Shown here in pieces: positions 20,160 through 28,121 of a DNA stretch of 32,500 nucleotides. Within the stretch, counting starts at the first letter, position 1; each line of letters opens with the position of its first letter. The translations under genes were made by a program, and so were the position numbers. Source of the stretch: Chloroflexota bacterium (GTDB lineage: Bacteria > Chloroflexota > Dehalococcoidia > JACVQG01 > JAHKAY01); contig JAHKAY010000019.1 in NCBI GenBank assembly GCA_018825785.1, forward strand, positions 1 to 32,500, read 5' to 3'. Below the pieces are notes generated by a model. It had not been told where the DNA came from. It ran no database searches and saw only the letters and a list, made by a program, of their open reading frames with translations.

Positions 20160-20226
20160 GTCCCCTAAAATACCATAACGGGGCAGGAGAGACAAGATGA
20201 AGAAATCTGTGCATGTGAGGAGGAGT

Positions 20227-21300
20227 ATGGGTGAAATCAATGTGGCCGTCATCGGCGTGGGGAACTGTGCTTCCTCTCTGGTCCAGGGTGTCCAGTATTA
20301 TCGCAAGGCGAAAAAGGAAGAGTTTGTCCCCGGCCTGATGCATGTGGACCTGGGGGGCTACCATGTGGGGGATATACGCTTCGTAGCCGCCTTTGATATA
20401 GACAAGAACAAGGTGGGAAAGGACCTGGCCCAGGCCATCTTTGCCCCACCCAACAACACCATCCGCTTCAGTGATGTCCCCGATACGGGGGTGAAGGTGG
20501 AGAGGGGGATGACCCATGACGGCCTGGGGAAATACCTCTCCCAGGTCATCTCCAAAGCCCCGGGGGCCACATCCAACATAGTCCAGCTCCTGAAGGATAC
20601 CGGGACCCATGTGGTGGTGAACTTCCTCCCGGTGGGCAGTGAGATGGCCACCAAGTGGTATATAGAGCAGGTGCTGGATGCCGGCTGCGGCTTTGTCAAC
20701 TGTATCCCGGTGTTTATCGCCAGGGAGCCATACTGGCAGAAGCGCTTTGAGGAGAGGGGCCTGCCGGTCATCGGGGACGACATCAAGTCCCAGGTGGGGG
20801 CCACCATCACCCACCGGGTCCTCACCCACCTTTTCCGGCAGAGGGGGGTGAAGTTGGAGCGGACCTATCAGCTCAATTTCGGCGGCAATACCGACTTTCT
20901 GAATATGCTGGAGAGGGAGAGGCTCCACTCCAAGAAGGTCTCCAAGACCCGGGCGGTGACCTCCCAGCTGGACTATGACATTGGGGCCGACAACATCCAT
21001 ATCGGCCCCTCGGACTATGTCCCCTGGCTCCAGGACCGGAAGTTCTGCTACATCCGGATGGAGGGGCGCACCTTTGGCGATGTGCCTCTCAACCTGGAGC
21101 TGAAGCTGGAGGTGTGGGACAGCCCCAATTCGGCGGGGGTGGTAATAGACGCCATCCGCTGCTGTAAGCTGGCCATGGACCGGGGGTTAAAGGGGGCCCT
21201 CATCGGCCCCTCAGCCTATTTCATGAAATCTCCTCCTGTCCAGTATTCTGATGATGAGGCCCACCGACTGGTGGAGGACTTTATCGCTGGGAAACTCTGA
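20227..21300 (+). CDS. ino1: Myo-inositol-1-phosphate synthase, actinobacterial type
   Basis: Isomerises glucose 6-phosphate to 1L-myo-inositol 1-phosphate with enzyme-bound NAD. The 357 residues closely follow the mycobacterial Ino1 pattern: [73 protein letters not shown] and [19 protein letters not shown] chose the ATG at 20227 behind AGGAGG. The ATG at 20197 also has a weak ribosome site and would add ten residues. It is the first gene of a three-gene module with a PimA-like transferase and a CDP-alcohol phosphatidyltransferase, so the product probably goes into phosphoinositides. Confidence 0.96.
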
Positions 21301-21303
21301 GGG

Positions 21304-22416
21304 ATGAAGATAGCCATCGTTTCCCCCTATGACTTCTCCTACCCCGGGGGGGTGAACAACCATATAATTCAACTGGAAAAGCACTTCCTCAGAATGGGCC
21401 ACCAGGTCAGAATCCTGGCCCCGCGGTCCAGGAAAGGCGTGACTGTTCCCAATCTCATACCCCTGGGCAGGGCCTTCCCTGTCCCCTCGGGGGGGTCTGT
21501 GGCCAGGATTACCTTTTCCCTCTGGCTTGGCCCCCGGGTGAAGGAAATCCTGGAGAGGGAAGCCTTTGACATCGCCCATGTCCATGAGCCCCTCACCCCC
21601 TTTCTCCCCGCGCTGGTCCTGATGCGGGCCCGCTGCCCCAAGATAGGCACCTTCCATGCCTGCCATCGGGAACCCCGGGGCTATGGCCTGACCAAGCCCC
21701 TCATCTCCGTCTGGTTCCAGCGGCTGGACGGTCTTACCGCTGTTTCCATCCCTGCCCGTGACTTCATCGCCCGGCATTTCCCCGGGGACTATCAGATTGT
21801 CCCCAACGGGGTGGACCTGGCCCTCTTCCGGCGGGAGACCCCGCCCCTGGAGGCCGTCAAGGAAGGCAAGACCCTGCTCTTTGTGGGCCGGCTGGAGAAA
21901 AGGAAGGGCCTGGACTACCTCCTGGGGGCCTTGGCCGTGATAAGAAAGGAAAGGAAGGATGTGCGGCTCATCGTGGTGGGGCCGGGGACCCGCCTCAGGG
22001 AGGCCTATGAGGAAATGGCCCGGGAAATAGGCGGGGTGCATTTCACCGGCCTTGTTCCCTCTGAGGACCTGCCCCGATATTATGCCTCGGCCAATATCTT
22101 TTGTGCCCCGGCCACGGGGGAGGAGAGCTTTGGACTTGTCCTCCTGGAGGCCATGGCCATGGCCAAGCCGATAGTGGCCTCTGCCATCCCCGGCTTCGCC
22201 CAGCTCGTCACCCACGGAGAGGACGGGGTCCTGGTGCCCCCCAAGGACGAGAAGGCCCTGGCGAGGGCCATCCTGGAGCTGCTGGAAGACCCCGCCAGGG
22301 CCCAGGCCATGGGAGAGAGGGGGTGGGAGAAGGCCCAGGGCTACTCCTGGGAGAGCATCGCTGAGAAGACCCTGGCGGTCTACCGGAGGCACCTGGTTGG
22401 GGCTCCCCGACTTTAG
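21304..22416 (+). CDS. GT4 glycosyltransferase, PimA-like mannosyltransferase
   Basis: A 370-residue GT-B glycosyltransferase of family GT4. It resembles mycobacterial PimA, which transfers mannose from GDP-mannose to phosphatidylinositol. Matching segments are SPYDFSYPGGVNNHIIQL at the N-terminus, GRAFPVPSGGSVARI, HVHEPLTPFLP, IVPNGVDLALF, LFVGRLEKRKGLDYL and the donor-site EESFGLVLLEAMA at about residues 275-287. It lies 3 nt after the inositol phosphate synthase gene and overlaps the next gene by 20 nt. The context strongly favours an inositol lipid acceptor; the sugar donor is not proven by sequence. Confidence 0.9.
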   Translation: MKIAIVSPYDFSYPGGVNNHIIQLEKHFLRMGHQVRILAPRSRKGVTVPNLIPLGRAFPVPSGGSVARITFSLWLGPRVKEILEREAFDIAHVHEPLTPFLPALVLMRARCPKIGTFHACHREPRGYGLTKPLISVWFQRLDGLTAVSIPARDFIARHFPGDYQIVPNGVDLALFRRETPPLEAVKEGKTLLFVGRLEKRKGLDYLLGALAVIRKERKDVRLIVVGPGTRLREAYEEMAREIGGVHFTGLVPSEDLPRYYASANIFCAPATGEESFGLVLLEAMAMAKPIVASAIPGFAQLVTHGEDGVLVPPKDEKALARAILELLEDPARAQAMGERGWEKAQGYSWESIAEKTLAVYRRHLVGAPRL

Positions 22417-22972
22417 AAAGGGCGCGGCCCGCCGCCTGAGTTCCGTCCCGGCCCGGTTCCTTGTGGGCAGGATGAGCCCCAATACCCTGAGCCTGGTGGG
22501 CTTTCTCCTGAGCCTGCTTGCGGCCTCCCAGGTAGCCCTGGGCCATCTCCTCTGGGGTGGCCTGCTGGTCCTGCTGGCGGGTTTTGTGGACCTACTGGAT
22601 GGGGCGGTGGCCCGGCTGGGGGGGCGGGCCACCCCTTTCGGGGCCGTCCTGGACTCCGTCCTGGACCGCCTCTCCGAGGCGGCTGTCCTTATGGGCCTGG
22701 TGGTCCATTTTGGGGGGTCCTCCCTGGTCTATCTTATCTACGCGGTCCTGGTGGGCTCCTTCCTGGTGAGCTATGTCCGGGCCAGGGGGGAGGGACTGGG
22801 GCTTGTCATGGAGACGGGCCTCTTCACCCGTGGGGAGAGGGTGGTGGTGCTGGCGTTGGGCCTGGTCTTCCCCGTGGTACTATGGCCCGCTCTGGCCCTC
22901 ATCGCCTTCCTTTCCTGGTTCACGGTGGGAGAGCGCCTTTTCTCCGTCTGGCAGAAAACGGCCAAGCGCTGA
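22397..22972 (+). CDS. CDP-alcohol phosphatidyltransferase, PI-phosphate synthase-like
   Basis: A 191-residue integral membrane enzyme that would join a CDP-lipid to an alcohol phosphate, here probably inositol phosphate. The catalytic CDP-alcohol motif is complete: Asp68-Gly, Ala72-Arg73, Gly82, Asp86 and Asp90, within DGAVARLGGRATPFG. The sequence around it (FGAVLDSVLDRLSE, SYVRARGEGLG, TRGERVVVLALG) follows mycobacterial PgsA1, a PI-phosphate synthase, more closely than PG-phosphate synthases. The start is TTG at 22397, seven bases after GGAGG and inside the end of the preceding transferase gene. CDP-diacylglycerol could come from the cdsA of this window. Confidence 0.87.
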   Translation: MGLPDFRKGAARRLSSVPARFLVGRMSPNTLSLVGFLLSLLAASQVALGHLLWGGLLVLLAGFVDLLDGAVARLGGRATPFGAVLDSVLDRLSEAAVLMGLVVHFGGSSLVYLIYAVLVGSFLVSYVRARGEGLGLVMETGLFTRGERVVVLALGLVFPVVLWPALALIAFLSWFTVGERLFSVWQKTAKR

Positions 22973-24454: not shown

Positions 24455-25408
24455 TTATCTAAAACCGTCCAGGAAGGCCTTTACATTCTTGCCCAGGACC
24501 TTCTGGTTGTAGCCGCCCTCCAGGACGGCAAACCTTCTGCCACTGCTGTTTCTCTCGGCCGCTCTCTTGAGCAGTGTGCCTATGGTTGTGTAGTCCTGAA
24601 TCTCAAAAATCCCACCCCAGTCAGATTTGCTCGCATCAAATCCGGCTGATACGGCCAGAATATCATATTGTCTTGGCTCCGCGAGGAAGGCTTCCAGTTT
24701 CTGGAGTAGCATGGTCCTGTCCCCCCCCTGAGACACCAGGTGAAAATAGGTAACTCTGGGGTCATCATTCTGGGGGTCATCGAATGTGTAAAATGTCCCA
24801 TCGCCCCAATGGAGGTCAAAGTCCACAATCAAGGCCCTTTCTATCTTCTTTTCATCCAGCAGCTTCATTACGGCGACGGCGATATTGTTAAAGTAGCAGA
24901 AGCCCCAGGAGGAGTCGGGACCGGCATGATGGCCGGGGGGCCGATTGATGGCCATAGAGACCTCTCCGGCCATTGCCATCTCCGAGGCCAAGAGCGCCCC
25001 GCCGGCGGACAGGAGGGCAGTATCATAGAGCTCATTGCCCTTTGATTTCACGTTGTCAATTTGCCGCTGGGTATGGACCCTTCTAATGTCTTCTACATTG
25101 GCCGGTTCGGGCTGGGTGAAGACAAAGCCGGGAACGCCCCAGAACTCTTTCAGGATGGCCTCTATTCTCCCGGGTTCAGCCGCCGCCTCTTTAGAGTAGA
25201 CCGTTAGATAGGCGGGATGGTAGATTACTATAACCCCCTTCTGTTGAGGGGTCGGGAGCCTGGTCTCCCCGGGGGTTGGGGGGGCATTGGGGGTCGGGGA
25301 GTTGGGCTGCCCGGTGGTCGGGGTGACATTAGGGGTCGGGGTGGCCCTGCAGGCAGCGGGCAGGCCCAGGACCAGCAGCAACGCCATTGACCACAGCAGC
25401 CCCTTCAT
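24455..25408 (-). CDS. Exported histone-deacetylase-like amidohydrolase
   Basis: A 317-residue class II-type deacetylase/acetylpolyamine amidohydrolase with an export signal. Residues 1-19 form a hydrophobic signal ending in LGLPAAC, a lipobox-like site with Cys20. A Thr/Pro/Asn linker follows (about residues 22-54). The catalytic domain has NRPPGHHAGPDSSWGFC with the paired active-site His160-His161, zinc ligands Asp198 and His200 in DFDLHWGDG, Asp258 in SAGFDAS, and Tyr300 in LEGGY. All key residues are present, so it should be active. Family members normally lack an export signal. Its ATG overlaps the dapA stop by 4 nt, making it the last gene of the dap operon. Proline at -3 of the lipobox is unusual. 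Confidence 0.9.
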   Translation of the reverse strand: MKGLLWSMALLLVLGLPAACRATPTPNVTPTTGQPNSPTPNAPPTPGETRLPTPQQKGVIVIYHPAYLTVYSKEAAAEPGRIEAILKEFWGVPGFVFTQPEPANVEDIRRVHTQRQIDNVKSKGNELYDTALLSAGGALLASEMAMAGEVSMAINRPPGHHAGPDSSWGFCYFNNIAVAVMKLLDEKKIERALIVDFDLHWGDGTFYTFDDPQNDDPRVTYFHLVSQGGDRTMLLQKLEAFLAEPRQYDILAVSAGFDASKSDWGGIFEIQDYTTIGTLLKRAAERNSSGRRFAVLEGGYNQKVLGKNVKAFLDGFR

Positions 25409-26313
25409 TCCCCCGCCGGTGCGTGGTGAGGAGGCAGGTCTATCGTGAAGTTCTTGAGGGTGGAATCTATCTGGGCAGCGGTCTTCTCATCGGGCTCCAC
25501 CAGGGGCAGGCGTGGCTTACCCACCCGGAAGCCCACCCTGTTGAGGGCGTATTTGAGGGGGATGGGGTTGGCCACCAGGAACATGGCACTCACCAGGGGC
25601 AGGAGCCGGCGGTGGATGGCGGCCGCCTCGGCGGTCCTGCCCTGAAGGAAATCGTCTATCATCTCCTTTATCTGCTTTCCCACCAGGTGGGAGATGACGC
25701 TGATGACCCCGTAGCCCCCCAGGGCCAGGATGGGCAGGGTATCCCCATCGTTCCCGCTCCAGACAAGGAAGTCCTTTCTCCTCACCCCCTGGATAATGCG
25801 TGCCACCTGCTCCAGGTTGGCCGAGGCCTCCTTCACGCCGATGATGTTATCTACCTCTGAAAGGCGGAGGACCACATCGGCGGGGAGGTTGGTGACGGTG
25901 CGGGAGGGGACGTTATACAAGATGCAGGGCAGGCGGGTGGCGCTGGCGATGGCCCGGAAGTGCTGGTAGAGGCCCTCGGGGGTGGGGCGGTTATAGTAGG
26001 GGACCACCAGGAGGCAGGCATCCACCCCCAGCCCCTCCGCCTCCCGGGTGAGTTCAATGCTCTCGGCGGTGTTGTAGCTTCCCGTGCCGGCCACCACCGC
26101 CCCTCTATTGCCCGCGGCCTCTCTCACCTGGGCGAAAAGCTTCAGTTTTTCCTCCCGGCTCAGGGTGGGGGCCTCGCCGGTGGTGCCCGAGACCACCAGG
26201 CCGTCGCTCCCTGAGGCCAGAAGGGCTCTGGCCAGGCGTTTTGCCTGGGGGTAGTCCACCTCTCCCCTCTCGTTGAAAGGGGTGACCATGGCGGTGATGA
26301 GGCGGCCCAGCAT
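25405..26313 (-). CDS. dapA: 4-hydroxy-tetrahydrodipicolinate synthase
   Basis: Condenses pyruvate with aspartate semialdehyde, the first committed step to diaminopimelate and lysine. The 302-residue TIM-barrel protein keeps all catalytic residues at the E. coli positions: Schiff-base Lys161 in GVKEAS, Tyr133 in YNVPSRT, Arg138, Thr44-Thr45 in GTTGE and Tyr107 in PYYNRPT. The ATG at 26313 abuts the stop of the asd homologue directly. It needs a source of aspartate semialdehyde, which is notable because the neighbouring asd homologue lacks its catalytic residues. Confidence 0.97.
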   Translation of the reverse strand: MLGRLITAMVTPFNERGEVDYPQAKRLARALLASGSDGLVVSGTTGEAPTLSREEKLKLFAQVREAAGNRGAVVAGTGSYNTAESIELTREAEGLGVDACLLVVPYYNRPTPEGLYQHFRAIASATRLPCILYNVPSRTVTNLPADVVLRLSEVDNIIGVKEASANLEQVARIIQGVRRKDFLVWSGNDGDTLPILALGGYGVISVISHLVGKQIKEMIDDFLQGRTAEAAAIHRRLLPLVSAMFLVANPIPLKYALNRVGFRVGKPRLPLVEPDEKTAAQIDSTLKNFTIDLPPHHAPAGE

Positions 26314-27324
26314 TTATAGCCAGCCGTTCTGGAGCAGGGCCTCGGCTATCTGGATGGCGTTGATGGCCCCCCGGCGCAGGTTATCGGCCACCACCCACAT
26401 GGTCAGGCCGTTGGGCAGGGCCACATCCTGCCGCACGCGCCCCACATGGACCTCGTCGGTGCCCGCCACGGCCCAGGGCTGGGGATAGAGGCTCACCTCG
26501 GGGTCATCCTCCACCTTCACCCCCGGGGCCTGGGCCAGTAACCGGCGGGCCTCCTCTGGGTTGATGGGGTTGGTGAATTCCACGTGGATGGCCTGGCTGT
26601 CCCCGATGTAGACCGGCACCCGGACGCAGGAGGCGGAGATAGCCAGGTCAGGGGAATGCATCAGCTTGGCGGCCTCCTCTTTTATCCGCCATTCCTCCAT
26701 GGTATAGCCATTGTAAAGGAAGACGTCTATTTCCGGTAATATGTTGAAGGCTGTCTGGTGGGTAAAGACATGTGGGATGACGCCCTTTCCCTCCAGGACC
26801 TGTTTGGCCTGGTTGGTGAGCTCTTCCATAGCCGCCGCCCCCGCCCCGGAGACGGACTGGTAGGTGGCCACCACGGCCCTCCTGATGGGGTTTACCCGGT
26901 GCAGGGGGGCCAGGGCCATTACCATCTGGATGGTAGCGGCACTGGGGCTGGCGATGATCCTCTTGTGGTGCTTCAGGTCTTCCAGGTTTACCTCAGGGAC
27001 CACCAGGGGGACCCAGGGCTCCATGCGGTATGTGGCCGACTGGTCTATTACCACCGCTCCGTTCTTGACTGCGGTTGAGGAGAAACGGCGGCTAGCTTCA
27101 GTGCCGGCAGCGAAGAAGACCAGGTTCAGACGGCTCAGGGAGGCGGAGGTGAGCTCCTTCACCTCTATCTCCTGGTGGTTGAAGAAGAGCTGCTTGCCGG
27201 CGGAGCGGTCGGAGGCCAGGAGCTGAAGGGAAGTGAGGGGGAACTGCCTTCTCTCCAGGAGCTTTAACAGCTCTCGCCCCATCAGGCCGGTGGCTCCCAC
27301 CACGGCCACATAGAGGGGCTTCAC
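26314..27324 (-). CDS. Aspartate-semialdehyde dehydrogenase homologue lacking the catalytic Cys and His
   Basis: This 336-residue protein is a full-length member of the Asd family, which reduces aspartyl phosphate to aspartate semialdehyde. Shared segments include VAVVGATGLMGRELLKLL, LLASDRSAGK, VPLVVPEVN, TYQSVSGAGAAAMEEL, SCVRVPVYIG, GTDEVHVGRVR and VVADNLRRGA. But the active-site motif normally read NPNCST is SPSAAT: Ala129 replaces the nucleophilic Cys. Asp242 replaces the acid/base His of RVPV..GHS. The only Cys is Cys233. The frame is otherwise intact. The GTG start at 27324 overlaps the dapB stop (GTGA), so the gene is translated in the operon. It may have a regulatory or altered role. 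Confidence 0.88.
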   Translation of the reverse strand: MKPLYVAVVGATGLMGRELLKLLERRQFPLTSLQLLASDRSAGKQLFFNHQEIEVKELTSASLSRLNLVFFAAGTEASRRFSSTAVKNGAVVIDQSATYRMEPWVPLVVPEVNLEDLKHHKRIIASPSAATIQMVMALAPLHRVNPIRRAVVATYQSVSGAGAAAMEELTNQAKQVLEGKGVIPHVFTHQTAFNILPEIDVFLYNGYTMEEWRIKEEAAKLMHSPDLAISASCVRVPVYIGDSQAIHVEFTNPINPEEARRLLAQAPGVKVEDDPEVSLYPQPWAVAGTDEVHVGRVRQDVALPNGLTMWVVADNLRRGAINAIQIAEALLQNGWL

Positions 27325-28121
27325 GGCGGGTTCCCTCCCAGGCCCAGGAGCTTCTCCAGGCCATAGACCAGTCCCTTGAGCTCCACAACTGCCTTGATGG
27401 CCAGGAGGACGCCGGGCATGAAGCACTCCCGGCTTATGGCATCGTGCCTGATGCTGAGGGTCTGGCCCGATGCCCCGAAGATGACTTGCTGGTGGGCCAT
27501 GAGCCCGGGGAGGCGCAGGCTGTGGAGGGCGATGCCACTCAGCTCCCCGCCCCTGGTGCCGGGGAGGTTCTCCTTCTGGGTGACGGGATGGAGGAAGGGC
27601 TTCCCCCTGGCCTTGGCTATGGCCCTGGCTGTAGCCAGGGCGGTGCCTGATGGGGCATCCAGCTTTTCGTGGTGGTGCATCTCTATAATTTCAGCGTAGT
27701 CAAAGTAGCGGGCAGCTAGTTGGGCGAGGTAATTCATCACCACCGCTCCCAGGGCGAAGTTGGGGGCCGCCACCACCCCCACCCCCGCCTCCCGGGAAAG
27801 GCGGTCAAATTCCTCCAGGTCATGGGGGGTAAGGCCGGTGGTGCCCATGACCACATTTACGCCTTTCCTGGTGGCCACTGGCACCAGGGCCCTGGCGGCC
27901 TCGGCCACGGAGAAATCGGCCAGGACCTGGGGCTTGCCCCTTCCCAGTACCTCCTCCAGGTGGGAGGAGTAGAGGATGGTTTCAAAGCCTGGGGGCAGGG
28001 GATGGGCTGGAGCGCGGATATCCACCGCCCCCACCACCTGGAAATCCGGGTTCCTGCTCAGGGCCTGGAGAAGCTCCCGCCCCATCTTCCCCGCCCCGTG
28101 AATGGCTACCCGGAGAGCCAT
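27321..28121 (-). CDS. dapB: 4-hydroxy-tetrahydrodipicolinate reductase
   Basis: Reduces the DapA product with NAD(P)H in lysine and diaminopimelate synthesis. The 266-residue protein has the nucleotide-binding VAIHGAGKMGREL, the GTTGLTP loop, the catalytic EMHHHEKLDAPSGTA with His149-151 and Lys153, and the C-terminal ISRECFMPGVLLAIKAV. All expected active-site residues are present. It starts at ATG 28121, 5 nt after the pnp stop, and overlaps the next gene. Confidence 0.96.
   Translation of the reverse strand: MALRVAIHGAGKMGRELLQALSRNPDFQVVGAVDIRAPAHPLPPGFETILYSSHLEEVLGRGKPQVLADFSVAEAARALVPVATRKGVNVVMGTTGLTPHDLEEFDRLSREAGVGVVAAPNFALGAVVMNYLAQLAARYFDYAEIIEMHHHEKLDAPSGTALATARAIAKARGKPFLHPVTQKENLPGTRGGELSGIALHSLRLPGLMAHQQVIFGASGQTLSIRHDAISRECFMPGVLLAIKAVVELKGLVYGLEKLLGLGGNPP

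Follow-up and report, generated by a model that had tools for sequence, protein, structure and literature searches.

The window, meaning the whole stretch of 32,500 nucleotides of Chloroflexota DNA analyzed here, contains a dapB-asd-dapA operon whose middle gene encodes a homologue of aspartate-semialdehyde dehydrogenase (Asd, ASADH) lacking both the catalytic Cys and the catalytic His (Table 1). The asd start GTG and the dapB stop overlap in the sequence GTGA, and the dapA ATG directly abuts the asd stop codon TAA, in agreement with the original prediction of a full-length gene translationally coupled between its two neighbors. Immediately downstream of dapA, and in the same orientation, lies a gene for a histone-deacetylase-fold protein (PF00850; 24455-25408); the protein carries an N-terminal lipoprotein-like signal and a Thr/Pro-rich linker and is possibly an exported deacetylase. 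Genes for inositol-3-phosphate synthase, a GT4 glycosyltransferase and a CDP-alcohol phosphatidyltransferase are clustered at 20197-22972. The last is nearest to models for archaetidylinositol and phosphatidylinositol phosphate synthases (155 and 126 bits, below the cut-offs), and the gene content of this cluster suggests inositol phospholipids in the organism.

Table 1. Genes of the dapB-asd-dapA operon and active-site codons of asd, in window positions
Feature	Position	Strand	Basis or detail
dapB, 4-hydroxy-tetrahydrodipicolinate reductase	27321..28121	-	TIGR00036, 236 bits
Asd (ASADH) homologue, Cys-less and His-less, pseudoenzyme candidate	26314..27324	-	336 aa, GTG start
Ser128 (AGT), position of the conserved substrate-site Asn (NPNC)	26941..26943	-	alignment and codon check
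Ala129 (GCC), catalytic Cys position	26938..26940	-	alignment and codon check
Gln156 (CAG), active-site Gln retained, TYQ motif	26857..26859	-	
Arg213 (CGG), position of the phosphate-orienting Lys (K246 in H. influenzae)	26686..26688	-	
Arg235 (CGG), substrate-carboxylate Arg retained, RVPV motif	26620..26622	-	
Asp242 (GAC), catalytic His (acid-base) position	26599..26601	-	alignment and codon check
dapA, 4-hydroxy-tetrahydrodipicolinate synthase	25405..26313	-	TIGR00674, 336 bits

Active site and expected activity of the operon Asd

As a sequence the window protein belongs to the bacterial-type ASADH family. In whole-protein profile searches it scores 392.5 bits against TIGR01296 (asd_B, cut-off 324.2) and 415 bits against NF011456 (cut-off 223), and both Semialdhyde_dh domains (PF01118 and PF02774) are found. 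An annotation pipeline would therefore label it an active enzyme. The AlphaFold2 model, with a confident pLDDT of 88, superimposes on solved ASADHs with a TM-score of 0.92. A conserved predicted fold combined with lost catalytic residues marks the protein as a candidate pseudoenzyme.

The replacements of the nucleophile by Ala and of the acid-base His by Asp, as well as the retention of the Gln and Arg of the active site, had been predicted and were all confirmed, the two replaced positions by inspection of their codons. The nucleophile region reads IIASPSAATIQM as compared with IIANPNCSTIQM in active relatives and the acid-base region reads VRVPVYIGDSQA as compared with VRVPVxxGHSEA, with SPSAAT standing in place of NPNCST and GDS in place of GHS. 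Two further changes, Asn128 to Ser and Lys213 to Arg, came to light in addition to those predicted. Arg100 and Glu210 are also retained and the NADP/cofactor motifs GATGLMG and ASDRSAG are intact. The sole Cys of the protein, Cys233, is present in active relatives as well, which rules out a displaced catalytic Cys. A set of 86 intact relatives defines 81 near-invariant columns. The window protein keeps 73 of them and departs from eight, three of which are catalytic or substrate-site positions, and this distribution of losses is not due to chance. A sequencing or assembly error can be dismissed because several active-site codons changed together and similar losses occur in many genomes.

In H. 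influenzae ASADH, the mutants C136S, H277N and K246R retain <0.01%, 1% and 3.3% of activity, respectively (PMC3276109). By analogy with these mutants, the window protein is very unlikely to function as an ASADH.

A second Asd and the recurrence of altered operon copies

The original prediction held that the cell would need another Asd to supply DapA, and a search of the window genome (1.59 Mb, completeness 97%, contamination 0.32%) located one. Three proteins of the ASADH superfamily are encoded, namely the window protein, an ArgC-like protein and an archaeal/fungal-type Asd (contig C12:138-1244, reverse strand) with Cys144, Gln171, Arg252 and His259 all intact in the motifs EPNCTT, YQ, RVP and GH. 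This second Asd scores 322 bits against NF006416/PRK08664 (cut-off 232) and 295.8 against TIGR00978, just short of the cut-off of 301.2, and is expected to have ASADH activity. Archaeal/fungal-type and bacterial-type Asds share only about 27% identity. A foreign origin of the contig is unlikely given its matching G+C content (0.621 vs 0.622), the orthologues with 76% identity in two genomes of the window's order and the low contamination. The operon Asd is the ancestral copy and the archaeal-type Asd the newcomer, so the label paralogue initially given to the window gene was not quite right.

Relatives assign the window to the class Dehalococcoidia of the Chloroflexota. Operon Asds were read in 139 genomes of this class and eleven core residues, either catalytic or cofactor-binding, were scored; genomes without the ANPNCxT codon pattern were fetched first, and the sample leaves aside several dozen more distant operon Asds of the class. 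At least one core residue is lost in 31 of 32 operon copies from genomes with an archaeal-type Asd as opposed to 18 of 107 from genomes without a detected one, and the Cys is lost in 11 of 32 as opposed to 5 of 107 (Fisher p = 3.5e-17 and 4e-5, respectively, uncorrected for relatedness). A phylogeny-controlled sign test gives the same direction with too few informative pairs for significance. Parsimony on a tree calculated without the catalytic columns yields 11 changes for Cys loss, at least five of them forced by well-supported branches, and Cys-less operon Asds are found in many families across the class. All 34 archaeal-type Asds checked keep the Cys, Gln, Arg and His, and those accompanying altered operon copies fall into four sequence clusters. 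The window's order presents a graded series: G001, from the window's own family, has an intact operon Asd and no second Asd detected, G004 has both Asds with the operon copy intact, G003 has both with an operon copy reading NPDSST, and the window genome has both with an operon copy that is Cys-less and His-less.

The 18 exceptions are mostly incomplete MAGs or members of genera or families whose relatives have a second Asd, and several alter the NADP-phosphate Arg alone. One Cys-less operon Asd (L015) comes from a 0.8 Mb MAG with no second Asd detected; its sequence is identical in G259, whose congener G260 has an archaeal-type Asd. Two other Cys-less copies, L101 (G184; IPNSST/N) and L085 (G043; SPNAAA/Y), come from genomes with a completeness of 74% and 69% in which no second Asd was detected; they are either true exceptions or cases in which the assembly lacks the second Asd.

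Ala129 and Asp242 proved not to be conserved among relatives. In other lineages the nucleophile is Ser or Gly and the His is replaced by Asn or Tyr, or the cofactor loop has been lost instead; overall, the nucleophile is replaced by A, S or G, Asn128 by S, D, E, G, C, T, K, H or R and His242 by D, Y or N, depending on the lineage. Most altered operon copies of family f44 keep Cys and His; what they have lost is the substrate-site Asn, the NADP-phosphate Arg, the glycine-rich loop or the Gln, the last replaced by Glu, and some of these copies may retain activity. Five f44 copies (L089, L092, L094, L259 and L260) retain Cys and His but have a Glu in place of the active-site Gln, and their glycine-rich NADP loop is broken (for example GATEIVG or GATDIIG), a mode of disarmament unlike that of the window protein.

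Altered operon Asds are full-length open frames that still adjoin dapB and mostly also dapA. Among the 28 genomes with an archaeal-type Asd in the class sample, 19 keep the operon Asd and none was detected in nine. Seven of these nine have readable dapB and dapA genes, which adjoin each other with no asd between them.

Selection on altered copies and competing explanations

The view that the altered active site does not reflect random decay, part of the original prediction, is upheld by low dN/dS values and by the focus of the losses on catalytic columns. In pairs where both copies are Cys-less, all from lineages other than the window species, as are the other altered pairs, dN/dS is 0.06 (G014/G050), 0.17 (G033/G060, dS 0.64) and 0.21 (G187/G281). 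The remaining altered pairs fall between 0.09 and 0.24, with the exception of very close pairs carrying little signal. Pairs of intact Asds lie in the same range, and so do DapA and DapB of the altered pairs. Purifying selection this strong on copies with crippled catalysis argues that the protein still does something. Losses in the Cys-less copies concentrate on Asn128, His242 and Gln156, and the six active-site columns besides Cys129 are lost in 29 of 90 cells as compared with about 84 of 1,110 in the rest of the near-invariant columns. P106, P110, E111, N113, R296, R298, D300, W310, D314 and N315, located in the motifs PLVVPEVN, GRIRxD and WxxxDN, are never lost. The window Asd itself evolves somewhat faster than DapA predicts (ratio 1.40 vs 1.05, z = 3.9; z = 2.1 against DapB), and its constraint is therefore partly relaxed.

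This mild acceleration would fit a transitional decay in which the operon Asd, made redundant by the second Asd, loses its active-site residues first and is deleted later, the gene staying open for a while with the help of translational coupling to dapA. The differences among lineages in the residues lost and the nine second-Asd genomes without an operon Asd would fit as well. We nevertheless regard decay as unlikely, since the altered pairs, G033/G060 included, are as constrained as DapA and DapB, the losses are focused on catalytic columns and the altered frames remain open over their full length. Coupling alone is excluded as the reason for retention by the genomes in which dapB adjoins dapA without asd; the nine genomes also imply that any second role is dispensable. 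The intact cofactor motifs of the window protein, together with Gln156, Arg235 and Arg100, would suit new or residual Cys-independent chemistry on the same fold, such as that of a reductase or a hydrolase with a related substrate. The different chemistry initially envisaged is, however, very improbable as a common property, as the replacements at the nucleophile, Asn128 and His242 vary by lineage without a shared new active site and other lineages lose the cofactor loop, which makes a role for the folded protein likelier. The least probable alternative considered is a regulatory hetero-oligomer in which the dead subunit would bind the live archaeal-type Asd and modulate it. Dead copies do occur mostly where an archaeal-type Asd exists, and the C-terminal-half residues of GRxRxD and W310-D314-N315 are never lost in Cys-less copies, but the low identity between the two Asd types and the four archaeal-type clusters that accompany altered copies make repeated compatibility of an interface unlikely.

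The computational observations, namely the loss of active-site residues, its recurrence, the intact second Asd, the operon position and, in other lineages, purifying selection, point instead to a displaced ancestral Asd that was probably kept as a pseudoenzyme with a non-catalytic role, perhaps as a partner of the DAP enzymes. An archaeal/fungal-type Asd acquired elsewhere in the genome would have taken over catalysis from the bacterial-type Asd of the operon, and the DAP-branch enzymes would use aspartate semialdehyde from this second enzyme. After such a non-orthologous displacement the old gene may be either deleted or retained. Where retained, the active site would be free to vary, and the rest of the protein, with nucleophile and acid-base His gone presumably no longer an ASADH, would stay folded and under purifying selection for a non-catalytic function. 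Recurrent loss in carriers of the archaeal-type Asd suggests such a second job for the old protein, and the DAP enzymes are the first partner candidates because the gene lies between dapB and dapA. The most likely function would be a structural or allosteric one, exerted as a partner of the co-translated DapA and perhaps DapB, in keeping with the scaffolding or regulatory role originally proposed, which is plausible. More tentatively, the operon Asd of Dehalococcoidia could have an ancestral catalysis-independent function in the DAP branch, for example in building or activating a DapA-DapB assembly, that repeated archaeal-type takeover has exposed.

Significance and comparison with known systems

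The active-site groups of ASADH were described in a 2010 review as preserved throughout evolution (PMC3276109). In one bacterial class this constraint has been lifted many times with the protein still kept, and most of the genomes concerned have gained a second Asd or are closely related to genomes that have. The altered operon Asds represent natural separation-of-function mutants that predict a role of Asd besides catalysis and supply sequences for testing it. Curated models call these copies active aspartate-semialdehyde dehydrogenases and pathway annotation can consequently be wrong. A literature search on Usg, pseudoenzyme Asds and lysine synthesis in Dehalococcoidia found nothing.

The window protein resembles bacterial-type ASADHs (TIGR01296/NF011456; Thermus 2yv3, S. 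pneumoniae 2gz1) in fold, length, NADP motifs, Gln, Arg and location in a dap operon, and differs from them in lacking the catalytic Cys, the His and the substrate-site Asn and in having Arg for the phosphate-orienting Lys. Archaeal/fungal-type ASADHs (PRK08664/TIGR00978; M. jannaschii 1ys4), the type of the second Asd in the window genome, form a separate branch with the catalytic set intact. E. coli Usg and the P. aeruginosa USG-1 homologue (2hjs; NF005957, NF004224) are likewise ASADH homologues without the Cys. E. coli Usg reads VPDSLTS, has lost the Gln and carries Gln and Ala for two Arg residues, and so illustrates that dead relatives of ASADH occur. Usg, however, adjoins truA/pdxB instead of lying in a dap operon. 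The window protein scores below both Usg-type cut-offs (244.6 vs 273 for NF005957 and 259.2 vs 284 for NF004224) and represents a separate subfamily. The plant TSB-like pseudoenzyme, which has lost key catalytic residues and allosterically activates tryptophan synthase alpha (PMC12727527), is a precedent for this kind of mechanism in amino-acid biosynthesis. Both proteins are relatives of biosynthetic enzymes that survive with key catalytic residues lost; TSB-like is a paralogue of a still-active gene with a proven partner, whereas the window protein would have arisen by non-orthologous displacement and the DAP enzymes are its candidate partners.
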